33,085 nucleotides of DNA from a virus (IMGVR_UViG_3300042691_048001:1-33085), one strand, 5' to 3'. Positions 430 through 29,221 are shown, counted from the first letter of the stretch. The notes: generated by a model not told the origin, from the sequence alone. Made by a program: numbers and translations.

Positions 430-642
430 TTAAAAATTATCTGATATATATAATCTAACTTGATTTTCTTGTTTTCTTTGTCCTAAATCAGCTAAGGAAT
501 CAGCTAAATTTTCTAATTGGTTTCGATTATAATTAGATAAATCTAATGATAAATTTAAAGTTTGGGAAGGATTATCTAAATATCCTTCTTTTATTCCAGC
601 TAAACGCTGCATTTTTTTAATTTCGTTAATATTTTGTTTCAT
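430..642 (-). CDS. Small protein with MKQxINE leader
   Basis: The protein has 70 residues. Its first 16 (MKQNINEIKKMQRLAG) nearly match those of the protein encoded at 10854-11237 (MKQSINEVKKMQRIAG), although the remainders are unrelated. The leader contains I-N-E at residues 5-7, the pattern cleaved by T4-type prohead proteases. The body is Asn/Leu-rich and polar (LSLDLSNYNRNQLENLAD) with no recognised domain. It starts 12 bases after the gene ending at 655, and NATAAATA-type boxes flank its start. I infer a small cargo or internal head protein; the function is unknown. Confidence 0.7.
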   Translation of the reverse strand: MKQNINEIKKMQRLAGIKEGYLDNPSQTLNLSLDLSNYNRNQLENLADSLADLGQRKQENQVRLYISDNF

Positions 643-645
643 AAT

Positions 646-653
646 TATAAATA
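646..653 (+). promoter_or_regulatory. TATAAATA box beside the gene starting at 642
   Basis: Plus-strand TATAAATA in the 12-base gap and adjoining bases between the genes at 430 and 655; the following bases also give AATAAATA on the minus strand (652-659), the only place in the set where the box also occurs in the gene direction. Weak evidence for a promoter. Confidence 0.3.
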
Positions 654-654
654 T

Positions 655-2298
655 TTATTTTAATTGAAATCCTATTTTTTCTCCATCTTTATTTGTACTG
701 TTTTTAGTAGCTAAATAAACATCAAATCCTTTCTCTTTAATTATTTTTATATATGATTTTAAAGAACTCTCATCAATACCATATTTAACATATATAACTT
801 GAACATACTTGTTAAATAAATCATTAAAATTAACTTGAGAATTAACATCTTTTAGAATTTGTCTTTCTAAAGCTGTTCTTTCCGCAGCATCATATGTTTT
901 TGGAAAATCAGGATTGGCTTTTAAGAAATTTTTAAGTTTAGCTTTTGTTTCTTTTGAACCATATTTAGGGACAAGTTTTAAAGTTCCTACTTTACCATTA
1001 TTATCTCTAATAATATCAAATATTTCTTGTCGTTCTGGATCAATTTTTCCTTTAGCGTTTTTAACTTTCTGTTCAATATTAGGTAATTTTATCACATTAC
1101 CTTTACCTTTAGCTTTTTTAGCGCTAACCTCAATAGTACTTCCATCAGAAGTTTTCATAAAATAATCAACTAAAGGATAATTACCTATAGCAGGAAATAA
1201 AACTTCAGTACCCTTAACTTCTTTAGCAAACATAATAGCACCTATTATCTCACCTAAGTTTTTCTCTACTTCATTTATAAATTTTCTATCACTTAATATT
1301 TCTTGTTTTTCATTAGAATTTAAAGTACTTTTATCAGCTACAAGATCTAAAATAAATTTCTTCTGAATGTCTTCTAATTTTGGATGATTTTTAACGCCAG
1401 TTGTTAATTCTTTTTTTAATTGATTTATAGAAATATAATTGTCTGTAGTAACACCTAAAGATTGAGGTTTTAATTCATAATACTCACCACTTGTTTTTAA
1501 TGGTTTAAATGTTATAGTAACTTTACCAACTTTAAAATCTCCTGAATTTGGTTGATTTGGTTTTCCATAAGTATCAAGTTCAGTTGTTTTACTTATTAAT
1601 TCTTTTCTATTATCATCATATATAACAATGTTATTAGCAGACGATGGTATTATTTGGTCTTGAGATATTTTTAGTTTTTTTATTAAATTTTGAGCTATAG
1701 CTTTAGCGTCAGGAGATAAAGCATCATATGATAATTTTTTCAATTCTAATAAATTTTCTAATAAATTTAAACCAAATCGTTTTTTAGATTCAGCTAATTC
1801 TTCTTCTCCACCTGCTTCTGGTTTAATAGTTTCTTCTTCTGTAGGTGTTTCTTCTGGAGTAGGAGCTAATTCTTGTTCAGGACCAGCTGTTTGTGGAGGT
1901 GAACCTAAAATTAATAAATCAGCTATAGCTAATATAGCTATTTCTAATTCACTTATGTGAGATAAATAATATTTTTTACCACTTACTTTAGCTTGGTATT
2001 TATCTTCTCCTAAATAAGTTAAATAAAAATATCTATTGTTATGTAAAATAATTTTAAATATTGTTGGTTTTGGAGCCATTATATAAACACCTACAATATA
2101 ATCTCTAAAATCTTCAGTTAATAAGTCTACTAAAGTTTTAGTTAATGAAGGATATTTATTTAAAATAAATTCTAATGGGTTAGACTCAAAAGTAAGTTCA
2201 GGAGTATCAGAACCAGTGTCTTGAGGGACTTGGTCTATTACTTCTTCCTCTTCTTTTAATGGACGTGATCTTATAATTTTAATCTTCTTCATATTCAT
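655..2298 (-). CDS. Large phage protein of unknown function, possible nuclease-like core
   Basis: The protein has 547 residues. The N-terminus is basic then acidic (RSRPLKEEEE). Residues about 130-170 form a Pro/Glu-rich linker (PTPEETPTEEE), which separates an N-terminal domain from a Lys-rich C-terminal domain. Around residues 374-400 the segment PLVDYF, about a dozen residues, then IEVSAKKAKGKGN resembles the D...(E/x)xK core of PD-(D/E)XK nucleases, but I cannot verify the fold. An internal stretch SKKRFGLNLLENLLE near residue 175 looks like the leader peptides of neighbouring proteins. The start overlaps the upstream gene by 20 bases; a second Met at codon 3 is an alternative start. No firm function. 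Confidence 0.75.
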   Translation of the reverse strand: MNMKKIKIIRSRPLKEEEEVIDQVPQDTGSDTPELTFESNPLEFILNKYPSLTKTLVDLLTEDFRDYIVGVYIMAPKPTIFKIILHNNRYFYLTYLGEDKYQAKVSGKKYYLSHISELEIAILAIADLLILGSPPQTAGPEQELAPTPEETPTEEETIKPEAGGEEELAESKKRFGLNLLENLLELKKLSYDALSPDAKAIAQNLIKKLKISQDQIIPSSANNIVIYDDNRKELISKTTELDTYGKPNQPNSGDFKVGKVTITFKPLKTSGEYYELKPQSLGVTTDNYISINQLKKELTTGVKNHPKLEDIQKKFILDLVADKSTLNSNEKQEILSDRKFINEVEKNLGEIIGAIMFAKEVKGTEVLFPAIGNYPLVDYFMKTSDGSTIEVSAKKAKGKGNVIKLPNIEQKVKNAKGKIDPERQEIFDIIRDNNGKVGTLKLVPKYGSKETKAKLKNFLKANPDFPKTYDAAERTALERQILKDVNSQVNFNDLFNKYVQVIYVKYGIDESSLKSYIKIIKEKGFDVYLATKNSTNKDGEKIGFQLK

Positions 2299-2638
2299 TA
2301 TCTAGTTCATGAAAGCCTTGATTAGCTTGATCAATATAATTTTCAGCGTTTGTAATATGGTCTTGAATCCAACCTGGTATATTACGTTCATTACTACCTA
2401 GTTTATTCATTAATTGAGATGCATTAGATATAATAGATTTTAAACTAGCTTGAGCCATTGATACTTCATGATCTTCACCTTCTTTAGCTACAATTTTAGC
2501 TTGTACTTCATCAGGTAAATCTTTTTGACCACCTTTTAATTTAGGATTATCATCATGTTTAGATGTAAATGTAGCTTCATCCATCTCTTTAAGAGATTGT
2601 TGCAACTTCCATGAATGTATGTTAAAATTGTCTTGCAT
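2279..2638 (-). CDS. Conserved small acidic phage protein
   Basis: The protein has 119 residues. The C-terminal half holds ASQLMNKLGSNERNIPGWIQ followed by DHITNAENYIDQANQGFHEL. This resembles a short helical module (P-x-W-[IV]-Q-x-x-I-T-x-A-x-x-Y-I) that I recall recurring at the ends of small proteins in marine T4-like phages, function unknown. The N-terminal part contains LKEMDE at 16-20, another L-x-E site. The protein ends in an acidic tail (ELDNEYEED). It begins 5 bases after the stop of the gene at 2644 and overlaps the next gene by 20 bases, so it is probably co-translated. Hypothetical, possibly virion-associated. Confidence 0.72.
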   Translation of the reverse strand: MQDNFNIHSWKLQQSLKEMDEATFTSKHDDNPKLKGGQKDLPDEVQAKIVAKEGEDHEVSMAQASLKSIISNASQLMNKLGSNERNIPGWIQDHITNAENYIDQANQGFHELDNEYEED

Positions 2639-2643
2639 ATATT

Positions 2644-3009
2644 TTATTTTGTTTTACCCCAAGTTTTACCTTTACCTTTTTTTTTACATCCAGCGGGTGT
2701 TGGACGACATGATGGATATTTGGCTCGTTTTTCACCTTCTTTTCTACCACATGCTTTATATCCACCTTTTCCATCAGGAGCATTACAATCTATCCAACCT
2801 GTTTCTTTACCTTTAGGACCAGAACGTTTAAACCATTTATGTAATGATTCATCTTCTTTTAAATCTTTCCAAATTTTACCTTGACGGCAACGTACAATAG
2901 CACCTGATTTATAAGCTGATGGTTTATCATAACGTCTATCAGCGATGCGATGACATCTATCTTTTTTCTTTTCAAGTAATATTTCTAATAAAATATTGGT
3001 TAATTTCAT
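2644..3009 (-). CDS. Cys-rich basic phage protein (DUF5872-like) with LLE leader
   Basis: The protein has 121 residues and is strongly basic. The leader MKLTNILLEILLEKKK contains two L-L-E sites. It is followed by KSGAIVRCRQGKIWKDL, then GWIDCNAPDGKGGYKACGR, then YPSCRPTPAGCKKKGKGK. The W-x-D-C-N...CGR...YPxCRPTPxxC pattern matches a Cys-rich module common in marine phage genomes and, as far as I recall, assigned to DUF5872. The six or so cysteines and basic character fit metal and nucleic-acid binding, but no activity is established. The start codon overlaps the upstream stop by one base (TAATG), so it is translationally coupled. Confidence 0.75.
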   Translation of the reverse strand: MKLTNILLEILLEKKKDRCHRIADRRYDKPSAYKSGAIVRCRQGKIWKDLKEDESLHKWFKRSGPKGKETGWIDCNAPDGKGGYKACGRKEGEKRAKYPSCRPTPAGCKKKGKGKTWGKTK

Positions 3010-3632
3010 TAGTCTTTAGTTACGTCTTTTAATTCATCAACTACAGCTTTAGTATCTTTTTTATTTTTCATGTATTCTTGTACCTTAGCTAAAGTTTCAT
3101 CTTTCATTTTCTTATAAGCTTCAGCTGCTTTTTTCACTTCTTCTCTTTTATCGTCACGTTCTTTAATTAACTTATTAGCTAATTTTTTAGCTTTAGCTTC
3201 TTTAACAAATACGCCTTTAATATCTTCTAATTTTAAACCACCACGCACTTGATTAGCAAAATAAGCTATATCAGAGCATTCAACTACAATATCTTCAACT
3301 GTAGATTTAGTTCCTGGTTTTTCTACTATATAGAAAGATCCTACTTCATCTTCAACATCGTCAGAAAGATGAACTCCTTCTTTTTTAGCTTCAGTCATTT
3401 CTGCTGGTTTATCTTCTTTAATCACATCATCAATTATATAATCACCGTGTGTTGGATCTTCTTTATTTATTTTTGCTAAAGCGGCTTTTGCTTCTTCTTC
3501 AGTATCAAAATATTCAGAAGCATTTTCACCACGTGCTCTGTCAAACACAACAAATTTTGTTTTACCTTTTTTTATAGGTTTTGCTTCTTCAATAGCTTCT
3601 CTAATTAATTGTTTAAGTTCTGAACGTTTCAT
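3009..3632 (-). CDS. Lys/Glu-rich helical protein with LIRE leader
   Basis: The protein has 207 residues. It opens MKRSELKQLIREAIEEAKP, a short amphipathic leader ending in I-R-E at 10-12, typical of many marine phage proteins. The middle contains a compact segment around FVVFDRARGENASEYF and TEEEAKAALAKIN. The last ~80 residues are charged helix (KREEVKKAAEAYKKMKDE) with probable coiled coil. High Lys/Glu content recalls internal head or scaffold-like proteins, but no homologous family is certain. It overlaps the upstream gene by 4 bases (ATGA) and the downstream gene by one, so it sits inside a tightly coupled operon. Confidence 0.72.
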   Translation of the reverse strand: MKRSELKQLIREAIEEAKPIKKGKTKFVVFDRARGENASEYFDTEEEAKAALAKINKEDPTHGDYIIDDVIKEDKPAEMTEAKKEGVHLSDDVEDEVGSFYIVEKPGTKSTVEDIVVECSDIAYFANQVRGGLKLEDIKGVFVKEAKAKKLANKLIKERDDKREEVKKAAEAYKKMKDETLAKVQEYMKNKKDTKAVVDELKDVTKD

Positions 3633-3892
3633 GATTTATATATTTTTATCTTTAGTTTACCTGTACCTTTTATAGTACGATGCCACATATGACGTGGTAT
3701 AAATATTGACTGATTCATAGACATTGGAAGTTGGTTATCAAGTTGTACAAACCAATCTGTAGGTTCTATAGCTTCAATCAATCTGTTTTCATCATCTCGA
3801 TGCCACATTAATTCTATAGGGTCAATGTTTTCATCAAATTCCCTAATTATATATTCATTAGTTGTAACTAAGTCTGTATATGGTTTACTCAT
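3629..3892 (-). CDS. Small cupin-like conserved phage protein
   Basis: The protein has 87 residues. The features are ELMWHRDDENRLIEAIE, then WFVQLDNQLP, then IFIPRHMWHRTIKGTGKLKI. Two W-H-R motifs, a central aromatic beta segment and a C-terminal IPxxxWHRxIKGxGxLxIKI hairpin resemble a small conserved phage family whose spacing suggests a minimal cupin-like beta barrel with His ligands. No function is known. The start follows a weakly purine-rich leader (AATTACCTCTATATG). The gene lies between the endolysin and the Lys/Glu-rich protein and overlaps the latter by 4 bases. An I-R-E site occurs at 16-18 but not in the usual leader context. Confidence 0.7.
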   Translation of the reverse strand: MSKPYTDLVTTNEYIIREFDENIDPIELMWHRDDENRLIEAIEPTDWFVQLDNQLPMSMNQSIFIPRHMWHRTIKGTGKLKIKIYKS

Positions 3893-3914
3893 ATAGAGGT
3901 AATTATTAATTTAA

Positions 3915-4574
3915 TCATAGTGATTTAAGCATCTGAATTAGTTTAGGATGAGGATAAACATCAACTTTATCTGTTCTTACAGAATTATGTGTAAATACTC
4001 CATTTTCTCCTCTTAAAGCTCGAGGAGTTACATCCCAAATATCTTCATTATATGTTAAATTAATACCATATTTTTGTTTCCAAAGTATTAATAAATCTTT
4101 TACAGCTTCAATTTGAGCATCTGTGTAGTTATGAAAATATCTGAATCCTTTATATGGTTGATCTAAATGACAAACATCATTTGGGTTGACTTCTTTATTA
4201 ACATAATTAATAAATTTATTATCTTTTACTGTTAGTTGCCCCCAGTTGCATATCTCAATACCTATTGATATCTTATCTAATGACTTGTATGGTAAATTAA
4301 ATTTCTGAAAAGTAGATTCTTTTAATCCTAAATGATAAGCCCAAAATTTAGAGCTAAATCCTTGAACTACTTCACCATCTATCCAATTAGCATTAGCTCC
4401 TGGTTTGCCTCCAATAGCTACACACGTAGCAATTCGTTCTTGATTGGATGCCCAACCAGTAAACGTAGCAAATGGATTAGCATTACCTGCTGTATGGTGT
4501 AAATAAATTTGTACTTTAGGATGTTCTTCAGCAATGTATTGGTTTGTTGGGAATGATGTTTGTGTAAGTTTCAT
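3915..4574 (-). CDS. N-acetylmuramoyl-L-alanine amidase (endolysin)
   Basis: The protein has 219 residues and an Amidase_2/PGRP-type fold. It would cleave the amide bond between muramic acid and L-Ala in peptidoglycan for lysis. Seen in sequence: YLHHTAGNANPF (Zn-binding His at 26-27), an AYHLG segment with His81, SIGIEICNWG, and THNSVRTDKVDVYPHP. The last places His196 and Asp205 in the H...K-x-D-x-x-P arrangement of AmpD-like enzymes. There is no signal peptide or membrane segment, so release would need a holin; none is recognisable in the window. It is flanked by hypothetical genes with short gaps of 22 and 15 bases. Length fits single-domain phage amidases. Confidence 0.92.
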   Translation of the reverse strand: MKLTQTSFPTNQYIAEEHPKVQIYLHHTAGNANPFATFTGWASNQERIATCVAIGGKPGANANWIDGEVVQGFSSKFWAYHLGLKESTFQKFNLPYKSLDKISIGIEICNWGQLTVKDNKFINYVNKEVNPNDVCHLDQPYKGFRYFHNYTDAQIEAVKDLLILWKQKYGINLTYNEDIWDVTPRALRGENGVFTHNSVRTDKVDVYPHPKLIQMLKSL

Positions 4575-4589
4575 AAATTTAAATTTTTA

Positions 4590-5249
4590 TTACCAATATC
4601 CTGAAAATGTTGTTTTGAATCCTAATAATTTAGCGTAACGCGGTAAACGACAACTCCAATATGAAGATGTTGTTCTATCTTTCTTTTGAGGGCAATTATG
4701 TCGCTTAGAAAAAGCAGCTCTAGCTTTTGGATTGTTAAGTTTGGCTCTTAAACCACCACCTGCCATTCCAAATGATACTTTTTTTATTTTTTTAGTCTTA
4801 GGATTTTTAACATATACATAGAATTTTTTAGAACCACCACGTTTAGGTTTACCTAACGCGGGTTGTTTTTTATCTGCTTCATTTAAGACTTCTGTCAAGA
4901 ATTCCTCGGTCAGAGGTAAGTCTAGTGGTACTTTAATACCATTATACTCACCAAATGTTCCTATATCTGTATTATCAAAATAATATTTATCTGATTCACA
5001 TAATACTAAACGCTTAGATTCATATAAATTTCTCGCTTCAATAAATAATTTCAAAAACATCATTGATTGAGGACGATATATTGATTCATTTAGCGGCAAG
5101 TTATTTTCAATATGATAAAACATACCTTCAGAAATGAAGACTGGTTCTTTAGATTCATTCATAACTAACTTAGGGCCATGATTATATTCTTGGCCCATAT
5201 AGTTAACAATTTTTTCAATATGTTCTTTTAATTGTATCTTATTCATCAA
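4590..5249 (-). CDS. Conserved phage protein with RHNCPQKKDRTT...SGYW C-terminal module
   Basis: The protein has 219 residues and two parts. The N-terminal ~130 residues begin MMNKIQLKEHIEKIV with an L-K-E site at 7-9. The C-terminal ~85 residues are highly basic: KPKRGGSKKFYVYVKNPK, KKVSFGMAGGG, NNPKARAAFSKRHNCPQKKD, SYWSCRLPRYAKLLG and terminal FSGYW. I recall this C-terminal module as very common in marine T4-like phages, often fused behind variable N-termini, with no known function. Conserved Cys, His and many Lys/Arg suggest nucleic-acid or metal binding (inference). The ATG overlaps the upstream stop (ATGA), so it is coupled to the gene at 5246. Confidence 0.78.
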   Translation of the reverse strand: MMNKIQLKEHIEKIVNYMGQEYNHGPKLVMNESKEPVFISEGMFYHIENNLPLNESIYRPQSMMFLKLFIEARNLYESKRLVLCESDKYYFDNTDIGTFGEYNGIKVPLDLPLTEEFLTEVLNEADKKQPALGKPKRGGSKKFYVYVKNPKTKKIKKVSFGMAGGGLRAKLNNPKARAAFSKRHNCPQKKDRTTSSYWSCRLPRYAKLLGFKTTFSGYW

Positions 5250-6199
5250 TATGGGGTTGTTTCTTTTGCTTTAGGAAATACTTTAAATTCAACTACACCA
5301 GCTATATTCTTAATATCCTCAATAATTTTTTTAATAGCGGACTTTATATCACCTTCTAAAACAGATGTGTCAATTTTAATATCAACATTTGTTTTATAAC
5401 GTAGTTGTCCTTCAGAATCAACACCTGGTTCTGCTGCTTTTGAGTTAACAATTGTAACACCAGGTAAAGCTCTCATAGCTGATAATATATTAGTTTGATC
5501 ATTTTCTTTAGTATTAGAAATCATTGTAGCTAACAATTGAAATTGTTTAGCAGGTGGTTTCTTTTCTGTTGGTTCTTCAATTGGTGTAAAATCTTCACCT
5601 TTATCTTGAGTAGGTTGAGTTTCTTCATCTCCTTTTTCTTCATCCGCCTCTTTTAATCCATAAGGTAAACCTAAAATACCATGAACTGTATTTCTAAACA
5701 TTTTTTGTGCTTGAATTTGAATAGCTTTCATAAGTAAATCCTGTAATGTAGGATTATCAGCTAATAAAGCTATCTTTCCATTATCTTTACTATGAAAAAA
5801 AGTACTTAGACGTAATGTCATGTTATTATCATCATCTATTTCAATATCTACAGATGGTATATCATCAAATGGATTTTCATCTTGTAGAGTATTTGTTTCT
5901 GCTTCTCTAATTAAAGAAGTATGTTTTTTTCCTTCATCACTTAATCTTATAACAATTGATCCTTCAGTAGCTCCGCCTTGACTAATACGCATTGGGCTAT
6001 CTAACCATGATTCAGGTATAGCTTTTGTTAGTCTTTCAAGTACAGATTGTAAATAGCTTGATCTAATAAAACTATTAACTGGATATACTATTATCATATT
6101 ATCTTTAAAATGTTGAACTTTAACATCTATAATATTACTAGCTGTATCTTTAATTAATTTTACTAGATCAGTTGTTTCTTCTTTAATACGAATCTTCAT
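5246..6199 (-). CDS. Conserved phage protein with MKIRIKE leader and C-terminal ferredoxin-like domain
   Basis: The protein has 317 residues. Its first seven (MKIRIKE) are identical to those of the kinase at 10105-10854. Residues about 20-95 form one alpha/beta domain (VYPVNSFIRSSYLQSVLERL). An acidic linker follows around 115-125. The region about 190-220 is a Pro/Glu/Lys linker (EEPTEKKPPAKQ). The C-terminal ~90 residues, with ILSAMRALPGVTIVN, KTNVDIKIDTSVLEG and IAGVVEFKVFPK, show the beta-alpha-beta periodicity of a ferredoxin/ACT-like fold that I recall repeatedly in marine phage proteins. Function unknown. It shares one base with the upstream gene and overlaps the downstream gene by 4 bases. 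Confidence 0.72.
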   Translation of the reverse strand: MKIRIKEETTDLVKLIKDTASNIIDVKVQHFKDNMIIVYPVNSFIRSSYLQSVLERLTKAIPESWLDSPMRISQGGATEGSIVIRLSDEGKKHTSLIREAETNTLQDENPFDDIPSVDIEIDDDNNMTLRLSTFFHSKDNGKIALLADNPTLQDLLMKAIQIQAQKMFRNTVHGILGLPYGLKEADEEKGDEETQPTQDKGEDFTPIEEPTEKKPPAKQFQLLATMISNTKENDQTNILSAMRALPGVTIVNSKAAEPGVDSEGQLRYKTNVDIKIDTSVLEGDIKSAIKKIIEDIKNIAGVVEFKVFPKAKETTPY

Positions 6200-6603
6200 T
6201 ACATTAATTTTGATAATTTATATTTAGTTGATTCAATTAATTCAACAAATGTATCAACTTGATTTTGAATATAAGAATCTTGAGATAAAGATTGACGATT
6301 TTTTTCTACATACATGCTTAAAGCTTCAAAATATTTAACTACATCTTTAGTATTTTCAATCCATTGTCCTTCACTTTTATATCCAGCAATGATACCATAA
6401 CGACCTTGAAATGATTCAGCTAAAGCGTCAATTAAAGGAATTATACCTTCATAATAAGCTTGTAAAGCAATATGAGCAGCATATGATCCTGGTCCTGTTA
6501 TTTGGAGATGAAATATATGAGCTTGTGTACGAGATGCCATGAATGTAGATAAGAAATTAGCCATGGCTTGATTTGGATTTGATAATTCAATTGATATAGA
6601 CAT
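6199..6603 (-). CDS. Dps/ferritin-like small protein (DUF5856-like)
   Basis: The protein has 134 residues, all helical by composition. FMASRTQAHIFHLQITGPGS, AAHIALQAYYEGIIPLIDAL and ESFQGRYGIIAGY match the pattern H-x-x-H-L-Q...Y-A-x-H-x-A-L-x-x-Y-Y...E-x-x-Q-G of phage proteins related to Dps/ferritin four-helix bundles (DUF5856-like, from memory). Retained His and Glu residues could form a di-iron centre, suggesting DNA protection or metal binding, unproven here. Upstream lies a larger gap (6604-6652) with a CATAAATA box and a small inverted repeat, so this may begin a transcription unit. The start lacks a Shine-Dalgarno sequence. Confidence 0.7.
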   Translation of the reverse strand: MSISIELSNPNQAMANFLSTFMASRTQAHIFHLQITGPGSYAAHIALQAYYEGIIPLIDALAESFQGRYGIIAGYKSEGQWIENTKDVVKYFEALSMYVEKNRQSLSQDSYIQNQVDTFVELIESTKYKLSKLM

Positions 6604-6624
6604 AGTTATGTAGATTTTGTCTTA

Positions 6625-6632
6625 CATAAATA
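6625..6632 (+). promoter_or_regulatory. CATAAATA box in gap before the Dps-like gene
   Basis: On the plus strand this reads CATAAATA, matching the cyanophage late-promoter form NATAAATA. The flanking gene is on the minus strand, where the same bases read TATTTATG. It is one of seven such boxes in intergenic gaps. An inverted repeat TTAATC/GATTAA (6636-6656) lies beside it and covers the stop codon of the gene at 6653. Whether it works as a promoter in this orientation is unclear. Confidence 0.35.
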
Positions 6633-6652
6633 TATTTAATCAACAGATAAGA

Positions 6653-7264
6653 TTAATTTTCACATAAGTGGTTATGAAGAACACCTCCGATTTGAGCTGC
6701 TTCTAATTCAAGTTCTTGAACTTGTTCTAAATCTAAAGATTTTTTACGTTTTGTATATTCAATACCTAAAGAACCTATTAATTTGTTATTTATATCTCTT
6801 ATACCAACCATATAAACACTTTTACAACCTGTCTCTGATGCTGTATATTTTAATCCATAAGTAGCCTCAGCTTCATCTTTAAAGTCTATTACAGATAATT
6901 TATTATCTTCTAAAATTTTATTAACAGATGGACTAAATAAGCTAACTGGAATGTTTTGAAATAACATTTTGATAGAATCAATACCATTTTCTACAACTTC
7001 ATAAAACATACTAAATTTTTGTATTGATTTACCTGTTGGATAGTAATGACCACCATTATGAAATTGAAGTATCCACACTCTATCAGTGTTGAATTTATTT
7101 TTTATGTCTTCAAGTTTATGATTTATTAAACTAGATACTTTTACTTCTCTAACTAATTTATCTTCTTTTTTAGTTTTATGATTTTCTATTTTACTTTTAA
7201 TTAATGCTACACCTATAGGAACTATTACACCAGTCACAAAAAATGATACACTTTCCCAATTCAT
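6653..7264 (-). CDS. Membrane-anchored GAF-like domain protein
   Basis: The protein has 203 residues. A single N-terminal membrane segment occupies about residues 5-24 (VSFFVTGVIVPIGVALI), followed by a charged helical linker (KTKKEDKLVREVK). The rest resembles a GAF-type sensor domain: RVWILQFHNGGHYYPTG, KFSMFYEVVENGI, a central variable helix, then GCKSVYMVGIRDINNKLIGS and LGIEYTK. The FHNGG and late beta-strand pattern is one I recall in phage proteins annotated as GAF-like. A ligand-binding or host-membrane sensing role is inference. It has its own gap upstream (7265-7304) with a TATAAATA box and an inverted repeat, suggesting separate control. Confidence 0.7.
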   Translation of the reverse strand: MNWESVSFFVTGVIVPIGVALIKSKIENHKTKKEDKLVREVKVSSLINHKLEDIKNKFNTDRVWILQFHNGGHYYPTGKSIQKFSMFYEVVENGIDSIKMLFQNIPVSLFSPSVNKILEDNKLSVIDFKDEAEATYGLKYTASETGCKSVYMVGIRDINNKLIGSLGIEYTKRKKSLDLEQVQELELEAAQIGGVLHNHLCEN

Positions 7265-7276
7265 AGAGTCTATAAT

Positions 7277-7298
7277 TTATAAGATTGATTGCTTATAA
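7277..7298. promoter_or_regulatory. AT-rich inverted repeat with TATAAATA box before the GAF-like gene
   Basis: TTATAAG and CTTATAA form a perfect 7-bp inverted repeat around an 8-base spacer in the 40-base gap upstream of the gene starting at 7264. A TATAAATA octamer (plus-strand reading, 7294-7301) overlaps its right arm. It could be an operator, a weak RNA hairpin in the leader, or part of a promoter. The AT-only stem makes a strong terminator unlikely. Confidence 0.35.
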
Positions 7299-7304
7299 AT
7301 ATGT

Positions 7305-7880
7305 TTATATGTTGCGTTCTCGCAAATTTTTTATATATTCTTTGATATTTTTTATTTCTTCTTCATTAATTTTACCACCGCTCCATGATTCTAAATCTCC
7401 CTGCTCAGTAAAATAAGATTCGTTTTGTGAGTTAATATAATTTTCAAACGCTTGTTCAAAATCATCTACCATAGAGTTTTTATTAGCATTCATCATTTGT
7501 TTTTCATATTCATCCCATTTACCTTCTAATTTGATTTTAGCCTCCATTTCAATAACACAATCAAAACATCTACTATGTATAGACCACATTTTCTTATTTA
7601 AATCATTTCCTTTTATTGATTTATTACAAACAGGACATGCTAGAGGTATAGCAACTAATTGTCTTAATTTATCATGTTTAGTCACTGTTTGTTTAATACC
7701 GTTTTTAATAGTCCATTGTTTACCATTTTCTTCCCATATATCTCCTTCTTGATAATCTTGATATTGTTTTGAATATCCTACTTGAGTACCAGTAGATGAT
7801 CCAGCATTACCTGTGATAATATTTCTCATTCTCTGAACATCACGTTTAGAGAATTCTTTTTTTAAATTTGATTCTTGCAT
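7305..7880 (-). CDS. Zinc-ribbon conserved phage protein
   Basis: The protein has 191 residues. The N-terminal segment KRDVQRMRNIITGNAG followed by STGTQVGYSKQ and the strand YQEGDIWEENGKQWTIKNG matches a conserved phage protein that I recognise from marine T4-like genomes. A zinc ribbon follows, with CPVCNKSI and HSRCFDCVIEME giving two Cys-x2-Cys knuckles about 24 residues apart. The C-terminal ~70 residues are charged helix. Role unknown; zinc binding is well supported by spacing. It begins 6 bases after the gene ending at 7887, without a Shine-Dalgarno sequence (A/T-rich ACATTTTATT-like context on the complementary strand). Confidence 0.75.
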   Translation of the reverse strand: MQESNLKKEFSKRDVQRMRNIITGNAGSSTGTQVGYSKQYQDYQEGDIWEENGKQWTIKNGIKQTVTKHDKLRQLVAIPLACPVCNKSIKGNDLNKKMWSIHSRCFDCVIEMEAKIKLEGKWDEYEKQMMNANKNSMVDDFEQAFENYINSQNESYFTEQGDLESWSGGKINEEEIKNIKEYIKNLRERNI

Positions 7881-7886
7881 AACATT

Positions 7887-8303
7887 TTATTTTATTTCAG
7901 TTTTCTCCTTTACTTCTGGGTTAAGATATTTAGGTAGAAATGCTTTGTAGACTCTACTACGTTTCTCATCTGTTCCTTTGATTATAATTTTGTCTATTTC
8001 TTCTTTATATTGATAATAAAACTCATTAATTATTTCAGCTAATGTTTGAAGGATATTTCTAGCATCACCTTCACCTGTCATCTGGAATGTATCTATTTTG
8101 TTAAAATCTCCTGTATCTACTCCAAATGATACTTCAAATTCTCTGGCTTTTTCTTTAGAACTAAATACAACTTTATATTTATTAATCTCAGTTTCAAAAG
8201 TATATTCAACGTCTATTAAACTATCATCTGTTTCGTCATATATAGTATCATATTCAGAAAAAGGATAAGCTATCTCTTTTAATATATTTATTAACTTAAT
8301 CAT
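7887..8303 (-). CDS. Conserved phage protein (TGEGDARNIL family) with ILKE leader
   Basis: The protein has 138 residues. It opens MIKLINILKEIAYPF, a hydrophobic/basic leader ending L-K-E at 8-10. The body has strands (YKVVFSSKEKAREFEVSFG) and then FQMTGEGDARNIL, TLAEIINEFYYQYK, IIIKGTDEKRSRVYKAF. The G-x-G-[ND]-A-x-x-[IV]-[FL]-x-T-[LV]-x-x-I-I-x-E-F pattern with S-R-x-x-x-Y-x-x-F is a small phage family that I recognise but for which no function is known. The ATG overlaps the stop of the 602-residue fusion gene (ATGA), so the two are translationally coupled. Confidence 0.72.
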   Translation of the reverse strand: MIKLINILKEIAYPFSEYDTIYDETDDSLIDVEYTFETEINKYKVVFSSKEKAREFEVSFGVDTGDFNKIDTFQMTGEGDARNILQTLAEIINEFYYQYKEEIDKIIIKGTDEKRSRVYKAFLPKYLNPEVKEKTEIK

Positions 8304-10108
8304 AATCCTAAATCTTTCAATTGTTGTATTGTATCAGCAGCTGAAGTATGTAAAATACCTATACCACCAGCATCTTTCCAACGTTGTATATTATCTGCTC
8401 TATCATCAATTAATATTGAATTTGGTGTAGCAAATTCTTGTTTACGTTCTGCTGAACGTAATATAAGTTTAGTACCAGGTATATTTCTTTTTACCCAAGT
8501 AAATTTACCTATTTTAGATGATTCTTCTCTTGATGGGGCTGATAATAATTCTGGAGAGTATGGTTTAATATATTCCCATAATTGTTTTCCATCAGGCATC
8601 CATTGTAATTTAATCCAAAATGCGGCTCCAGCTCTAGTGATAGGTTCCCAAAATTCTTCAGGATTTGTATCATAACTAGCCTCTTTATTAGTTAAATCTT
8701 TATATCCTTTTTCAAAATCAACTAATACACCATCCATATCACAATATATTTTATAATCACCTTTTGAAGCATCTGCTTCAGTGAATATTTCTGGTCTGTA
8801 TTTACCAAATTGTCTTAATAAGACACCAGCAGCAGCATTAGCTTCATTTTCTACTTCTGATCCTGTTTTACCATCTTCAGGTGTTAGAGGTTTCATTTCA
8901 GCTTGTTTACGATGTACTAATTCATGAGCTAAAGTACGTAAAATATCTGCTGTTAATCTTGATCCTCTAACAACTAATAATTCATCAGTTTGAGGATTAT
9001 AAGCACCTAATGAATGTATTTTTTTAGCTAATTGTTCATCATCACTAAAAGTGATTTTAGGTACTTTTTGTAAATTAAGTGCTTGAGAAGCGAAATCAAT
9101 GAAATCAGCTATAGTATTATCAGTTGATACTTCTGGTTCTGCTAATGTTTCTTCTAATTTTGATTTCCACCAATTAATAGTAAATAAATCTTCTTCAACA
9201 TTAGTTGGTATATTATGTTTAGATAGATATTTAAGTACTTTTTCTCTTTGATCAGGTGAATCTCCTAAATTAGGAATCAACATACGACGTTCTTTACCAC
9301 CAAATGCTTGTTGAGAATATTCAAATGGTATTAACATTGTATTTAAATAATTCTCAATTTTAGGTGTTAAATGATAAGGTACACGTATAATTAAATTACC
9401 ATTTTCTTGATTTTCTTGAAGTTGATCTACATTTAATACTGGTATTCCTAATATTTTTAATATATCATCAAATCCACCTTTTTGGATAACAACTTCAGGA
9501 AAACATCCTTTTAATTCTTCTATTTTAATTAAATATTCATTTCTAGCTTTAGAATAGTCTGTTGAATTTTTGTCAGTAACTGAACGTAAATTCAAAATTG
9601 ATTTTTTTACTTCATTAACTAATTCACGAACTTGTGTACCTGATAATCGTTTACCTTTTGTTACAACTTTTTCTTCAACAGGTAATGGTTTTACTCTATC
9701 ACCAAATGCTTTTGTTAAAGCATCAAAATAATTTTGTGTGTCAGGATCACCTTGAACACCAGCAACATAAGCATTTAATTCTAAATCATTATCCATTATT
9801 GAAAAAATATCTTTAATGGGAGATGAATTAGAAGCTATTTCAACATTTATATTAGGAGATGGACTAAGATTTAAATATAAATCCCAAATCTTTTTACTTT
9901 GTTCTTTAGTTATACCATCTCGAGTACTATGACCAATTAATACTTTTACATTAGTAACATAAGGACGAGAAGATAAATCTTTAGCTACTTCAAAATGTCC
10001 TTCATGTGGTGGTTTAAAACCACCTGGGTAGAAACAAATGGCTGGAGGTGTTTTTGATTCTCCTTCATCCTCATTTAGTTCATTTAGTATAGTATTTAGA
10101 TCAATCAT
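8300..10108 (-). CDS. Three-domain fusion: nucleotidyltransferase, zincin, HAD phosphatase
   Basis: The protein has 602 residues. Residues 1-13 are a leader with two L-N-E sites (MIDLNTILNELNE). Residues 22-165 are a HxGH nucleotidyltransferase (NadR/TagD/NMNAT superfamily): YPGGFKPPHEGHF with HEGH at 35-38, and RLSGTQVREL at 154-163 as the second signature. Residues about 170-325 are an unrecognised linker domain. Residues about 330-437 are a minimal zincin: LRTLAHELVHRKQ gives HExxH at 395-399, with Glu at 417, 419 or 422 as third-ligand candidate. Residues 452-602 are a HAD-type phosphatase of the 5'(3')-deoxyribonucleotidase kind: YCDMDGVLVDF, GTKLILRSA, ILIDDRADNIQRW. All catalytic motifs look intact, so it is probably an active multi-enzyme. 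Substrates are unknown. It overlaps both neighbours by 4 bases. Confidence 0.88.
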   Translation of the reverse strand: MIDLNTILNELNEDEGESKTPPAICFYPGGFKPPHEGHFEVAKDLSSRPYVTNVKVLIGHSTRDGITKEQSKKIWDLYLNLSPSPNINVEIASNSSPIKDIFSIMDNDLELNAYVAGVQGDPDTQNYFDALTKAFGDRVKPLPVEEKVVTKGKRLSGTQVRELVNEVKKSILNLRSVTDKNSTDYSKARNEYLIKIEELKGCFPEVVIQKGGFDDILKILGIPVLNVDQLQENQENGNLIIRVPYHLTPKIENYLNTMLIPFEYSQQAFGGKERRMLIPNLGDSPDQREKVLKYLSKHNIPTNVEEDLFTINWWKSKLEETLAEPEVSTDNTIADFIDFASQALNLQKVPKITFSDDEQLAKKIHSLGAYNPQTDELLVVRGSRLTADILRTLAHELVHRKQAEMKPLTPEDGKTGSEVENEANAAAGVLLRQFGKYRPEIFTEADASKGDYKIYCDMDGVLVDFEKGYKDLTNKEASYDTNPEEFWEPITRAGAAFWIKLQWMPDGKQLWEYIKPYSPELLSAPSREESSKIGKFTWVKRNIPGTKLILRSAERKQEFATPNSILIDDRADNIQRWKDAGGIGILHTSAADTIQQLKDLGL

Positions 10109-10854
10109 TTAATAAATGCTTTTATTTTATTAATAGCTTCTGACGATGGAGTAAATTCTGGGGTTTGTTGAGTTAAACTAATTATATCTTGATTTAATTC
10201 TTCTTTTTCTTTTTTAAGTTTAGCTATTTCTTCAGGTGTTTTTGGTTTACCTTTAGCTTTAGATGTATCAAAAAATCTACGTTTTATTTCTTCAGGATCA
10301 AAACTAGTCTCAGCATCATTTGGATTATTATTAATAATTACTAAATTATCTCCAAATGCTTGTTTATATGTTTCAATATTTTTATTAATATCTCTCCATG
10401 TTCTTAAAACAATACCTGGTAATAATGCTCTATCTCTATTAGCATTTCGTTCAAGTGAAGTTATAGGTGAAACCCATATCATTATCATCATAGTTTCATA
10501 GCCTAAAGCCTCTAATTCTGCCTTTTTCTTGAGTAAAGGCTTTGATGCTGCACCTGTACCATCAATAATAATATCGTTTAAATTTTCGAGTGCTTTGGCG
10601 TATTTTTCTTTAGTTGCTTTTTGAGCTTGCCCCATCATTTTAGCTGCTTGAGACAATTCTTCAGGGCCAAAATCTTTAATTTTCATTCCTATGCCAGATG
10701 CCTTAAGTAATTCTTCATAAGTGTCATCAACATTTATAACTTGGAATTTAGATAGTGGTAATGATTTAGATACAAAGGATTTTCCTGCACCGGCTGGTCC
10801 AGCCATGAATACTGCTTGTGGCTTTTGTTGTACCTCTTTAATCCTTATTTTCAT
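10105..10854 (-). CDS. P-loop kinase, zeta-toxin/polynucleotide-kinase-like
   Basis: The protein has 249 residues. After the leader MKIRIKE comes a Walker A motif MAGPAGAGKS (17-26), INVDDTYEELL with acidic residues at 43-44, NDIIIDGTGA (94-101) and a lid-like Arg-rich stretch LERNANRDRALLPG followed by VLRTWRDINKN. This matches the AAA_33/zeta-toxin/T4 polynucleotide-kinase group of small-molecule or nucleic-acid kinases. The C-terminal ~60 residues are a Lys/Glu helical tail (PEEIAKLKKEKEELNQ). The substrate cannot be told from sequence: nucleotide, RNA end or UDP-sugar are all possible. It is coupled upstream by TAATG and downstream by a 4-base overlap to the nucleotidyltransferase fusion, suggesting a shared pathway. 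Confidence 0.82.
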   Translation of the reverse strand: MKIRIKEVQQKPQAVFMAGPAGAGKSFVSKSLPLSKFQVINVDDTYEELLKASGIGMKIKDFGPEELSQAAKMMGQAQKATKEKYAKALENLNDIIIDGTGAASKPLLKKKAELEALGYETMMIMIWVSPITSLERNANRDRALLPGIVLRTWRDINKNIETYKQAFGDNLVIINNNPNDAETSFDPEEIKRRFFDTSKAKGKPKTPEEIAKLKKEKEELNQDIISLTQQTPEFTPSSEAINKIKAFIK

Positions 10855-11237
10855 TACTTACTTGGAAATTCATCTGGTTTGGAAAATAAATAATAACTCA
10901 TTTCCATTTCAGCCCATTTTTCAACTTCATTATCAGGAATAGTGAATGGATCTTCATCAACTGGTGTGTCAAAGAAATACATTGATGACTCACCGTATCC
11001 TTCATCATCATCCATAAACACATCAACATCATCAATATATTCAGGATCAATTACTGATTTAAGATATGCTCTAATAGCGTCATCATTTAATACTGGAAAA
11101 TCTTCATCTTCTTGTTCTTCAGAAGAAATATATTTACTAGTAGTATTTTCATTTATTGATGATTCACGATATTCTTCTTCAGATATCAGACCAGCAATAC
11201 GTTGCATTTTTTTAACTTCGTTGATACTTTGTTTCAT
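10854..11237 (-). CDS. Acidic small protein with MKQSINE leader
   Basis: The protein has 127 residues. The leader MKQSINEVKKMQRIAGL is nearly the same as that of the protein at 430-642. The rest is very acidic (SSEEQEDEDFPVLNDD, DDVDVFMDDDEGYGESS) and ends with an aromatic helix (EKWAEMEMSYYLFSKPDEF). No domain is recognised. It is the first gene of the tight run that continues through the kinase and fusion protein, and it is preceded by 29 bases with an AATAAATA box at 11259-11266. The acidic body could act as a DNA mimic or a partner of basic cargo proteins; that is speculation. Confidence 0.7.
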   Translation of the reverse strand: MKQSINEVKKMQRIAGLISEEEYRESSINENTTSKYISSEEQEDEDFPVLNDDAIRAYLKSVIDPEYIDDVDVFMDDDEGYGESSMYFFDTPVDEDPFTIPDNEVEKWAEMEMSYYLFSKPDEFPSK

Positions 11238-11266: not shown

Positions 11267-11740
11267 TTAACTATTTTTCTTTGGGCGACCACGTTTACCA
11301 CCTGTTTTAACATATGCAATTGATTTCTTTAATGCCGGGTCCATTTTTGGACGGCCACGTTTACCGCCTGTTTTAACATAAACTGTAGGTGTTTTCTTTA
11401 ATGATGGATCCATTTTTGGGCGGCCACGTTTACCTTTTGGTTTATTTTCTTGTACTTTAGCTTTCTTTTTAAACAATTTAGGATGTACAATAAGCGCATC
11501 TAAATGAAATGCTCGTTTAGCACCTGTAATATCATAACATTCAAATCCACCGCCTTTCCATCCTTTTTCACCATCTTCATGACGTTGTTTAAAGTAAAAC
11601 TTGTTACCATAATCATTTTCAAAATATTGTGCAGGTAACACCTCAACACCTTCTTTAAAATCAAGTAAATGTTGTTCATCTGCTTCTATAACATATGCCT
11701 TACGAGACATGATATTAGCTTCTACATTAATTATTTCCAT
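11267..11740 (-). CDS. Triple AT-hook DNA-binding protein
   Basis: The protein has 157 residues. The C-terminal third carries three perfect AT-hook cores RGRPK at residues 105-109, 128-132 and 150-154. They are embedded in two near-identical repeats (KRGRPKMDPSLKK and KRGRPKMDPALKK, each followed after a short gap by YVKTGG) plus a third truncated copy. AT-hooks bind the minor groove of AT-rich DNA, which suits this genome. The N-terminal ~100 residues form an unrecognised alpha/beta domain (FYFKQRHEDGEKGWKGGG). An alternative start at Met11 (MSRKAYVIEADEQ) is plausible because the first ten codons are weakly conserved-looking. It is preceded by the sixth promoter-like cassette. Confidence 0.85.
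   Translation of the reverse strand: MEIINVEANIMSRKAYVIEADEQHLLDFKEGVEVLPAQYFENDYGNKFYFKQRHEDGEKGWKGGGFECYDITGAKRAFHLDALIVHPKLFKKKAKVQENKPKGKRGRPKMDPSLKKTPTVYVKTGGKRGRPKMDPALKKSIAYVKTGGKRGRPKKNS
11275..11440 (-). repeat. Tandem AT-hook coding repeats
   Basis: The plus strand shows three copies of a block reading (g/c)GGCCACGTTTACC or GGGCGACCACGTTTACC, spaced about 66-69 bases, each followed by CACCTGTTTTAACATA or CGCCTGTTTTAACATA in the two fuller copies. Near-identity at the DNA level indicates recent internal duplication of the AT-hook module. Copy number could vary between related phages. Confidence 0.7.
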
Positions 11741-14719: not shown

Positions 14720-15148
14720 CTAAACCAAATCTTTACTGAAAAACTTACCTAATATATTATCATTGTATGTTAGTACACCTGGTATTAATACATCATGTTT
14801 ACATTGGTAATGTAATTCATAGTATGTAAGTTCTTTTTTAGTCTTACATAATTGAATTATTATACATTCAAAATATTCTGGACCTAACTCTTTAACATCT
14901 TTAATAAGTTCTTTATTTGAGCCCCAATAATGTTCCCAATCACTTCCCACTTTTATTATTTCAAAAGATGATTTACGACCAGGACCGGTTTGTTCAGCAA
15001 GTTGTTTTTTGGTTAATTTTTTCTTTTTATTATACCAAAAATATTTTTTACCAATATAAAATTTTCCGTTTGTAAGATTTGTTATTTTATAAACAAAACC
15101 TAAATAATCTTCTGGATTATAATTATTAATATAATTCCATTTTGTCAT
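14720..15148 (-). CDS. GIY-YIG family endonuclease, free-standing
   Basis: The protein has 142 residues. GFVYKITNLTNGKFYIGKK gives the G-[FI]-[VI]-Y...Y-I-G motif at 17-33. GRKSSFE and DWEHYWGSNKEL follow, and the catalytic Glu lies in ELTYYELHYQ (Glu111). The spacing of the conserved W-x-x-Y-x-G-S-S/N-K segment fits a phage group of small GIY-YIG nucleases found in T4-like genomes. No extra DNA-binding domain is attached. It sits alone between the tail appendage genes and the replication genes, a typical place for a mobile homing-type nuclease, although a structural or repair role is not excluded. Confidence 0.85.
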   Translation of the reverse strand: MTKWNYINNYNPEDYLGFVYKITNLTNGKFYIGKKYFWYNKKKKLTKKQLAEQTGPGRKSSFEIIKVGSDWEHYWGSNKELIKDVKELGPEYFECIIIQLCKTKKELTYYELHYQCKHDVLIPGVLTYNDNILGKFFSKDLV

Positions 15149-15163
15149 AACATTAATATTTTA

Positions 15164-16795
15164 TTAAGAGCAAGTTCCCTCATATAAATAAATATCAATA
15201 TTATCACTAGATGCAAAAAGATATGGATTAAAGCTATATAATACGGGTGATGTACTATTATCAATCTCTATACAGTCAATTAATACATTATTTACAAATA
15301 ATGAAGCATTAAGTACAATAAAGTTAGGTAATCCAACATTGAAACTAACAATAATTTGAAGTGATAATGGAGATGGAGATCCACTATGATTTCCTCTAAA
15401 TCTTGAACCACCACCAGCTAATGGGAATGTTGTACTTCCCTGAATTGAGTAGAAACTTTGTGGTTCAATTACATCAATAAATATATTTTTAGATTGTTCT
15501 GTCCAATTTGTAACATTGAAATTTCTAGGTAATAGAGATGGAAGAGGTAGAGAAGTTGATATTGATGGAGTTGGAGTTACTGTTGGTGTTATGCTTATGC
15601 TAGGTGTTTGTGTTGGTGTTAAACTAGGTGTTATAGTTACACTAGGTGTTACACTTGTTGTAATAGTAACACTTGGTGTTTGTGTTGGAGTTATAGTTAC
15701 GCTAGGTGTTTGAGTCGGTGTTATAGTAACAGTTGGTGTAACTGTTGGTGTTGGTGACAATGTAGGTGTTATACTTGGAGTAGCAGATGGTGTTCTAGAA
15801 GGAGTTACAGATGGTGTAAAATAAGGCCGAGGACTCCATTGTGTATCCCATTTAATTAAAAAAGTTACATCAGTATTAGAAGATAAAGGCATTGGAGCTG
15901 CCATTTTACCAATAGCTAATAAATCATTAGCATCATTATATAAACCTACAGTAGTAACATAAGGAGAAAAAGTAATATCAGGTTTTATTGGATTAAAAGT
16001 TAATAAAGTTCCATTATTTGGTGATAAACTATTAAATTTATATTGTTTAAAATTAGAATCATTAAAATTATTTTGTATACCTATAACAGAATTAACTAAA
16101 GATGGATCCATTACTCCATAAACTAATTCTATCACATTAGTAGTCTCATAAAGTCTAATTTGAAAATTTACATTTTTAGTTTTATCATAATAAAATACAC
16201 CCTTCCATTCAGCACAAAATATTCTATTACCCGCTGTTCCTAATACTTGAGTATATATTCCAGCATTTGGTCTATAAATTGTACCAAGATGCAAATCAGT
16301 AAAAAATGGAAATATTGATGGACCAAAACCCGCATCAGGCAGAGGTCTTGGGGAATATAAAGTGTTAAATGTAGTGAATTGTAAGTTACCATTTGATGAT
16401 AAATTTACAGTGTTGTAGGTTTTATCATAAAAAATAAAATCAAATCCTATAGGTATATTATTTGTAACTTGATCATCACTTTGATTCCCTATATTAGCAC
16501 CACCTCCTGTTATTGTACCTGTAGATACACTTAAATCATATATAGTGCTGCCTTTTTCTTGAGCGAAATCTTTTAATATACCATAATTTGATTCAGAAAT
16601 CATATAAAAAACATCTCCTCCAACTGAACCACTAAAAGGAACTAATGTAGCTTGAGATCCTGATAATAAAGTTGGATTATAGCTTAAGTTAAATTCATAA
16701 TCTTTTACAGTACATTTAATAAAACTTTCATAGACTATATGATTATTTTTGAATTTTAAACTAGTAGCGTTTGTATTTAAACTTCTAATATTCAT
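15164..16795 (-). CDS. TPS-stalk appendage protein with inserted NIDO-like domain
   Basis: The protein has 543 residues. The N-terminal segment (SFIKCTVKDYEFNLSYNPT) and a later segment (VTTVGLYNDANDLLAIGKM, about 275-300) together match the C-terminal region of the protein at 22627-23700. Between them, residues about 80-270 look like a nidogen-type domain: IPIGFDFIFYDKTYNTVNLS, SSNGNLQFTT, GIYTQVLGTAGNRIFCAEW. Residues about 327-412 are a T/P/S/V/I stalk of TPSVTITPTQ type. Residues about 415-543 form a beta-rich C-terminal domain with two cysteines. It is probably a tail or baseplate adhesin. It sits last of the structural block, 10 bases after the gene at 16806. Confidence 0.78.
   Translation of the reverse strand: MNIRSLNTNATSLKFKNNHIVYESFIKCTVKDYEFNLSYNPTLLSGSQATLVPFSGSVGGDVFYMISESNYGILKDFAQEKGSTIYDLSVSTGTITGGGANIGNQSDDQVTNNIPIGFDFIFYDKTYNTVNLSSNGNLQFTTFNTLYSPRPLPDAGFGPSIFPFFTDLHLGTIYRPNAGIYTQVLGTAGNRIFCAEWKGVFYYDKTKNVNFQIRLYETTNVIELVYGVMDPSLVNSVIGIQNNFNDSNFKQYKFNSLSPNNGTLLTFNPIKPDITFSPYVTTVGLYNDANDLLAIGKMAAPMPLSSNTDVTFLIKWDTQWSPRPYFTPSVTPSRTPSATPSITPTLSPTPTVTPTVTITPTQTPSVTITPTQTPSVTITTSVTPSVTITPSLTPTQTPSISITPTVTPTPSISTSLPLPSLLPRNFNVTNWTEQSKNIFIDVIEPQSFYSIQGSTTFPLAGGGSRFRGNHSGSPSPLSLQIIVSFNVGLPNFIVLNASLFVNNVLIDCIEIDNSTSPVLYSFNPYLFASSDNIDIYLYEGTCS
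15560..15815 (-). repeat. TPS stalk-coding repeat, third appendage gene
   Basis: About 85 codons of near-perfect Thr/Pro-Ser periodicity, on the plus strand seen as repeated GGTGTTAYACTAGGTG/GGAGTTATAGT-like 6- and 12-base units. Third positions vary freely (GGT/GGA, GTT/GTA), so protein sequence rather than DNA sequence is kept. Confidence 0.85.
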
Positions 16796-16805
16796 TTTTT
16801 TATAA

Positions 16806-17414
16806 TTAACAACTTTGTAATACTATTAAAAATCCAGCGTCTCCACCACCAATTGCACCTTGCTGAGCACAAACATCTTGTCCTGGAGGTATACTTACTG
16901 GGCCAATTGGGAATCCGATACAGTTAGTAAATGATATACCATTTAATGTGTTTTGTGTAGGGTTATAATAAACAAAACATGGAATTGGTTCAAATGATAC
17001 ACTAGGAGTTACACTTGGTGTTCTAGTTGGAGTCACACTTATACTTACACTAGGTGATTGAGTTGGTGTTACACTTACACTAGGTGTTTGAGTTGGTGTT
17101 ACGCTCACACTAGGTGTTTGAGTTGGTGTTACGCTCACACTAGGTGTTTGAGTTGGTGTTACAGTGACTGTTGGTGTAACAGTTGGGGTTATGCTAGGTG
17201 TAATAGTAACACTAGGTGTTATAGTAACACTAGGTGTAACTGTTGGAGTCACACTAGGGGTAGCTGATGGTAATGGACAAAATACAAAGTCAATAACTGG
17301 AGGAACATAATCAGGATCTCCAATAGTATTTGGTTTGGTATTTCCTGTTGCTGCCCCATTATCAAGAAAATATTCTTCAAGATTGGCGTATATTTTAAGT
17401 CCTGTATTGGCCAT
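16806..17414 (-). CDS. Small TPS-stalk appendage protein
   Basis: The protein has 202 residues in three parts. The head (residues 1-46) is MANTGLKIYANLEEYF through DFVFCPLPSA. The stalk (about 47-143) contains three exact PTQTPSVSVT units. The C-terminal module (145-202) has FVYYNPTQNTLNGISFTNC, GPVSIPPGQDVCAQQGA and LIVLQSC, with four cysteines that may form disulfides. No signal peptide; a virion role is inferred from neighbours sharing the stalk. It lies after a TATAAATA-containing gap (17419-17426) only a few bases upstream of its ATG. Confidence 0.75.
   Translation of the reverse strand: MANTGLKIYANLEEYFLDNGAATGNTKPNTIGDPDYVPPVIDFVFCPLPSATPSVTPTVTPSVTITPSVTITPSITPTVTPTVTVTPTQTPSVSVTPTQTPSVSVTPTQTPSVSVTPTQSPSVSISVTPTRTPSVTPSVSFEPIPCFVYYNPTQNTLNGISFTNCIGFPIGPVSIPPGQDVCAQQGAIGGGDAGFLIVLQSC
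16990..17275 (-). repeat. TPS stalk-coding repeat, second appendage gene
   Basis: A 33-base unit (plus strand GGTGTTACGCTCACACTAGG then TGTTTGAGTT) is repeated in tandem at about 17060-17160 with almost no change, giving PTQTPSVSV T units. The rest of the tract is degenerate TPS repeat. Exact copies here imply recent expansion. Confidence 0.85.
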
Positions 17415-29219: not shown

Positions 29220-29221
29220 TT

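Follow-up and report, generated by a model that had tools for sequence, protein, structure and literature searches.

The question that this locus raises is why a run of phage genes with unrelated products should open with nearly the same short peptides. It lies at positions 430-11237 of a 33,085-nucleotide (33-kb) viral fragment from IMG/VR (IMGVR_UViG_3300042691_048001:1-33085; "the window" denotes this whole stretch), whose main genes all lie on the minus strand, and many of its products, among them a kinase and a nucleotidyltransferase fusion, carry N-terminal leaders ending in (I/L)-x-E. T4 gp21 cuts after L/I-x-E, and propeptides of 10-19 residues target internal proteins to the T4 core (PMC9026906). 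Judging from sequence comparisons, we consider it highly probable that the leaders are cleavable capsid-targeting propeptides by which the prohead is loaded with a large set of cargo, and we think it likely that this cargo is delivered into the host as effectors.

A preliminary description of the window listed nine such genes. All nine are present on the minus strand, each with [IL]xE by residue 7-13 (Table 1; a slash in a leader marks the predicted cut), but the list missed two, at 655-2298 and 2279-2638, and the total is eleven. For the open reading frame (ORF) given as 4590-5249 the leader stands, with the ATG at 5246 (MNKIQLKE) preferred as start over the TTG at 5249; this gene is the weakest of the set, its apparent homologs having other N-termini. 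Two pairs of like leaders had also been pointed out. The MKIRIKE pair (10105-10854 and 5246-6199) indeed has one leader, in which four of six codons differ, all synonymously, so it is the peptide and not the DNA that is conserved; the DNA upstream of the two genes differs as well. The MKQxINE pair shares its leader too, but the cut proposed after INE is likely to fall instead at residue 19-20 (AGIKE/, GLISE/). Five genes of the interval are without a leader: 3629-3892, 3915-4574 (an amidase), 6199-6603, 6653-7264 and 7305-7880. The amidase has NQYIAE near its N-terminus, which we take to be the normal start of such amidases and have set aside as a leader.

Six leader classes occur in the group, with up to five per genome: class A, M(I/K)(K/R)LxDILKE, found in contigs G001 and G004 and in the cultured Flavobacterium phage vB_FspM_immuto (immuto below); class B, MKIRIKE; class C, MKKSELKxLIREAIEE; class D, MKQxINEIKKMQRLAG(I/L)xxE; class E, MxNFDLKKFLxE(N/G)KL; and class F, 35 residues, MDxLDxFFKKxSYKFPKGYPDMNNxQDxLLLES. 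Immuto has A, C, D, E and F, and within the collection of cultured phages class E and F leaders are found only in immuto isolates. The leader of 10854-11237 stands also on the unrelated bodies of 430-642, of G007, G008, G001 and L262, and of immuto gene 188, while the leader class of 2279-2638 recurs in immuto gene 202 and in genes of L106 and L093. In contig G005 an array of class E leaders precedes differing bodies in adjacent genes.

The sharing of leaders between unrelated bodies far exceeds its controls. The 771 proteins of 12 related contigs gave 95 pairs in which the N-terminal 13-mers reach a BLOSUM score of at least 30 while the bodies are unrelated by BLAST, compared with 1-3 for shuffled N-termini and 2-5 for internal windows. 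The motif itself is commoner in the cluster than in other proteins of related phages: [IL]xE falls at residues 4-16 in 20 of 32 cluster families (62%) against 40 of 234 others (17%; p=1.9e-7), and the result was replicated in cultured immuto (13 of 21 cluster genes, 29 of 181 others; p=1.5e-5). At residues 31-43 or 51-63 [IL]xE is not enriched in cluster families; nor are [AG]xE and [ST]xE enriched in the cluster, nor [IL]xD, [IL]xQ, [IL]xN, [IL]xS, [IL]xR and [IL]xT in cluster N-termini, in which [IL]xK and [IL]xxE are also raised.

Leader and body behave as modules joined at the Glu. For instance, 38 of 40 kinase orthologs have leaders, such as MKIRIKE/, MISLVQLLKE/ or MKTFLEIQE/ (7, 10 and 9 residues); orthologs of the window's kinase have MI(S/K)LxxLLKE in place of MKIRIKE, and the distance between Glu and body is equal for MKIRIKE/ and MISLVQLLKE/. 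Two other bodies gave counts that come from related sequences and are thus not independent trials: the near-invariant DUF5872 body has [IL]xE upstream in 59 of 59 distinct sequences (background 14%), and the HAD nucleotidase has [IL]xE just upstream in 26 of 28 copies and [ILVMF]xE in all 28 (backgrounds 14% and 24%). DUF5872 leaders are as short as six residues (MENLNE/DRC), and the internal fusion junctions of this domain are still LQE/, LEE/ or IQE/; the nucleotidase either stands alone with a class A-like leader or is fused through an LAE/, LNE/, LTE/ or IFTE/ junction. The separate fusions are difficult to account for unless (I/L)-x-E is a protease site. In L147-L152 the kinase and the HAD nucleotidase, elsewhere separate genes, form a single ORF with an (M/I)LAE/ junction. 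A DUF5872 match in Roseobacter phage CRP-901, considered as a control, was dropped as a broken, unannotated stretch.

The cluster also keeps company with the head genes. Downstream of it in larger relatives and in immuto lie the genes for terminase, the portal (gp20), the gp21 protease, the scaffold and gp23, the protease, scaffold and major capsid protein of immuto being genes 201, 204 and 205; in G003 and immuto it sits between primase/nuclease and the run from terminase, portal, protease and scaffold to major capsid protein, and in G006 and G007 between primase/nuclease and terminase-portal. Relatives encode a gp21-like protease (Peptidase_S77, phrog_207): 16 of 30 related records have it, with all eight of those longer than 100 kb among them. 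These 16 comprise 14 of the 16 contigs with leader-bearing cargo, including all seven longer than 100 kb in that search, together with G001 and G003. Where positions were compared, it is usually separated from the leader genes by 10-25 kb. Genes in the prohead-core (gp67/gp68) slots have leaders of the cargo classes too: between portal and scaffold, immuto gene 199 has a class C leader, gene 200 has FIAE/AR as in T4 internal proteins (IPs), and gene 202 has class E. Scaffold-like proteins start with LKE- or IAE-type sites (MNRNFLKEA in G003, LLKQAIAEA in immuto), and the major capsid proteins have a conserved hydrophobic-x-E where a maturation site is expected. Leader-bearing genes are also found far from the late cluster in immuto (1803-2318, class E; 24569-24994, L126, class A), and G001 has leader-like N-termini outside the cluster (27545-29283 on the plus strand, LLEAEG; 38330-39129, class D LAGINE).

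Several observations weigh against capsid targeting. The S77 search of the window, which is a fragment, returned nothing, and 12 of the 14 contigs of the first S77 search, these being fragments of 25-62 kb, were without it. T4 N-termini show no similarity to the leaders above shuffles, the T4 capsid-targeting sequence (CTS) MKTYQEFIAE included, and we therefore liken the leaders to the CTS by function and claim no common descent. Kinase orthologs L139 and L141 and the G003 nucleotidyltransferase have no leader. We found no virion proteomics, and no observations of packaging, cleavage or injection, for these phages in the literature. Class C-like N-termini stand on a gene of the baseplate neighbourhood (fam21 in G002 and G006-G011; in immuto 81525-81944, L124, MKLDLLKKLIKEAVKEAVREEL), so an N-terminus of this kind does not always have to indicate head cargo. 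This last gene would also suit an explanation in which the N-terminal leaders work as a general docking helix for a different assembly, such as a tail/baseplate or infection-stage complex, and [IL]xE reflects the composition of an amphipathic helix, as might the rise of [IL]xxE and [IL]xK. We think this improbable, since Glu is enriched and Asp and Gln are not, internal domain junctions keep the site, as does a leader of six residues, which is not long enough to form a helix, leaders swap at the Glu, and classes D, E and F do not have one helix in common.

Alternatively, the leader proteins might belong to the prohead core or scaffold and be digested by the protease, serving to build the head and not as delivered effectors. 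In T4, cleavage reduces gp22, gp67 and gp68 to fragments (PMC9026906); the leader classes found here are present in the gp67/gp68 slots too, and several of the cargo proteins are small, with a high content of Lys and Glu. Against this, a P-loop kinase, an HxGH nucleotidyltransferase and an HAD nucleotidase are among the bodies, all of them conserved catalytic folds, and close relatives have exchanged some of the bodies, which would not be expected of a structural core. We rate a purely structural role as unlikely. That leaders abut start codons in tightly packed genes might suggest a by-product of conserved 5' DNA or translation starts, or of recent recombination between genes; we disfavour this and give it very little weight, as identical peptides are written in different codons behind differing upstream DNA and precede bodies unrelated by BLAST.

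The proposal that the leaders are capsid-targeting propeptides cut at I/L-x-E by a gp21-type protease is thus well supported by the protease, the synteny, the core-slot leaders and the exchange at Glu, while delivery with the DNA, also proposed, is a step that we infer, as we do targeting, cutting, packaging, ejection and host function. Late in infection, affinity of the leaders for scaffold or core would draw leader-bearing proteins into the prohead core, where the S77 protease of the gp21 family would cut after (I/L)-x-E, free the mature proteins within the head and split fused domains at internal (I/L/F)-x-E junctions. DNA would then be packaged around the cargo, which would leave the head together with the genome when the next cell is infected and act early on the host, by way of the kinase, the nucleotidyltransferase, the nucleotidase, the small basic proteins and possibly nuclease bodies.

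Two kinds of gene appear to exchange bodies behind a constant front. The carrier gene at 655-2298 and those of L184, L112, L101, L090, L182 and L187 have a constant N-domain and an (I/L)xE/SKK junction followed by a C-terminal body that varies among relatives. Elsewhere such bodies follow the class F leader (SYKFPKGYPDMNN), which precedes six unrelated body types (L183, L189, L191, L192, L194, L211, L236, L238, L251, L255, L093, L106, L125, L266, L267), identity in these genes being 46-80% in residues 1-32 and 9% or less past residue 40. A D-x(n)-(E/S)xK motif, picked after the bodies had been viewed, occurs in the body types; of 150 control proteins 12 have it as well, and three of these 12 are themselves bodies of this kind. 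Body X, the type in the window, has no relatives in the genome contig collection; its AlphaFold model (pLDDT 81) gave nothing in Foldseek at E<=0.001, the top match being MspI at a non-significant E=0.07, and the first 16 matches, suggestive only, include the restriction-type nucleases MspI, EcoO109I and AvaII together with Exo5 and SfsA. Because the motif is post hoc and the Foldseek value non-significant, we put forward nuclease identity of the variable bodies as a weakly founded hypothesis. The AlphaFold model of the type 4 body was poor and its structural matches were disregarded as meaningless. We speculate, on balance with more doubt than confidence, that the whole forms a combinatorial virion-effector system, in which interchangeable leader classes, the carrier gene and the class F leader with fast-swapped, possibly nuclease, bodies, and fused cargo cut apart in the capsid by the prohead protease would make up a strain-specific arsenal acting at the first moment of infection.

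The preliminary description knew of no such set at this scale. This holds for the number of leader classes and for the cargo of this group, of which we found no account in the open-access literature; it does not hold for the principle, as T-even internal proteins share a CTS, at least ten having been reported across relatives, many of them detected through the CTS itself (PMC12373910), and phages and plasmids have polyvalent proteins predicted to be virion-delivered (Iyer et al. 2017, PMC5512222). Like T4 IPI-III and Alt, with their CTS and gp21/Peptidase_S77, the system has short N-terminal propeptides on unrelated bodies ending in L/I-x-E, variable accessory cargo and, in relatives, the S77 protease and gp20-gp21-scaffold-gp23 module; it differs in that its leaders show no similarity to MKTYQEFIAE above chance and fall into six classes, and that about 11 leader genes, enzymes included, form one cluster that has sites at domain junctions and adjoins the head module. 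The gene at 8300-10108 has, as polyvalent proteins do, at least two conflict-type domains (HxGH, HExxH, HAD) in one ORF, by the head module in relatives. Polyvalent proteins, too, combine several conflict-enzyme domains, are encoded close to late genes and have been predicted to enter the virion, to be injected and to undergo proteolytic processing, and the HExxH motif of the fusion may represent a metallopeptidase-type domain like theirs, whereas most cargos here are short with a targeting leader, and the processing sites fit the prohead protease.

Giant-phage ejection proteins (phiKZ, SPN3US; PMC5694885) are also many capsid proteins whose propeptides the prohead protease removes, and the paralogs gp53 and gp54 have an identical N-terminus; in phiKZ, however, an S80 protease cuts at S/A-x-E (PMC9026906), in place of which we find S77/phrog_207, the propeptides are mostly long, and sharing is among paralogs and not unrelated bodies. 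Polymorphic toxins (PMC3482391) resemble the carrier and class F genes in their constant N-terminal delivery region and swappable C-terminal domains, but the present genes are phage-borne, and their bodies, with a nuclease-like motif, are candidate toxic domains. New here are the six leader classes, the enzyme cargo, the protease-like sites at domain junctions and the constant leaders on swappable bodies; this appears to be the T4 internal-protein strategy on a larger scale and with more variety, and not a new principle. The leaders provide a sequence rule for finding proteins probably injected with DNA by a widespread, mostly uncultivated T4-like group, and many "hypothetical proteins" become testable virion effectors, with immuto as a cultured member. 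They further suggest that polyprotein cargo is a substrate of the prohead protease, and that the swapping of bodies behind a constant tag is how capsid cargo evolves.

Table 1. Leader-bearing genes of the window and sites within them.
Feature	Position	Strand	Leader and details
Small acidic protein	10854..11237	minus	class D MKQSINEVKKMQRIAGLISE/; leader DNA 11178-11237
P-loop kinase (Zeta_toxin/AAA_33, polynucleotide-kinase-like)	10105..10854	minus	MKIRIKE/; leader DNA 10834-10854; P-loop 10777-10800; Pfam, PHROGs
Fusion: HxGH nucleotidyltransferase, zincin-like, HAD 5'-deoxyribonucleotidase	8300..10108	minus	MIDLNTILNELNE/; leader DNA 10070-10108
Domains of the fusion	9995-10024; 8912-8929; 8729-8746 and on	minus	HxGH; HExxH zincin-like motif; HAD
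Predicted internal processing site	8777..8788	minus	IFTE/AD between zincin and HAD; [IL]xE upstream of HAD copies
DUF6934 protein	7887..8303	minus	class A MIKLINILKE/; leader DNA 8274-8303; Pfam DUF6934 E=1.4e-10 from residue 33
Protein, no function named	5246..6199	minus	MKIRIKE/; leader DNA 6179-6199
Protein with C-terminal phrog_7595	4590..5246	minus	MNKIQLKE/; leader DNA 5223-5246
Lys-rich protein	3009..3632	minus	class C MKRSELKQLIRE/AIEE/; leader DNA 3597-3632
DUF5872 small basic protein	2644..3009	minus	MKLTNILLEILLE/; leader DNA 2971-3009; Pfam match from residue 16, directly after leader
Protein	2279..2638	minus	class E MQDNFNIHSWKLQQSLKE/; leader DNA 2585-2638
Carrier protein	655..2298	minus	MNMKKIKIIRSRPLKE/; conserved N-domain; junction ELAE/SKK (1789-1800); hypervariable body type X (residues 171-547)
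Candidate PD-(D/E)xK-like motif in variable body	1114..1170	minus	VDYF..STIEVSAKK; post-hoc motif
Small protein	430..642	minus	class D MKQNINEIKKMQRLAGIKE/; leader DNA 586-642

Searches of Pfam and PHROGs left most cargo proteins without a name. The kinase foreseen in the preliminary description is borne out by the Pfam match, and of its nucleotidyltransferase-zincin-HAD fusion the HxGH and HAD parts hold, the zincin being an HELVH motif without a Pfam match for a metallopeptidase. The fusion matches phrog_2643 (E=6.8e-27), and its immuto homologs are annotated as NadR-like and NT5C. Sequence searches of the PDB with the kinase and the fusion gave no matches.

The baseplate wedge gene of the window matches immuto (46% identity), Microcystis phage Mel-JY01 and many uncultivated contigs; megablast of the window against phages gave no match. 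The group appears to consist mostly of uncultivated T4-like phages of aquatic bacteria and resembles the "Far-T4" phages (PMC4360716), a placement that we suggest from gene content. The T4 late-promoter-like TATAAATA does not mark the cluster. Immuto carries genes annotated for queuosine/deazaguanine, and G001 has ORFs that, read by eye, are QueC- and QueE-like, so the DNA of these phages may itself be modified and protected.

Elsewhere in the window, the gene at 6199-6603 (DUF5856, phrog_858, annotated as a starvation-inducible regulator) has, in relatives (G006), a preceding segment fused to it, and that at 11267-11740 has three C-terminal AT-hook-like KRGRPKMDP repeats. A GIY-YIG-like protein (14720-15148) between the fibre genes and the primase is retained in several relatives, and the fibre-region proteins at 15164-17414 and 17430-22616 have long T-P-S repeats (TPSVTITPS) that give rise to long spurious antisense ORFs.

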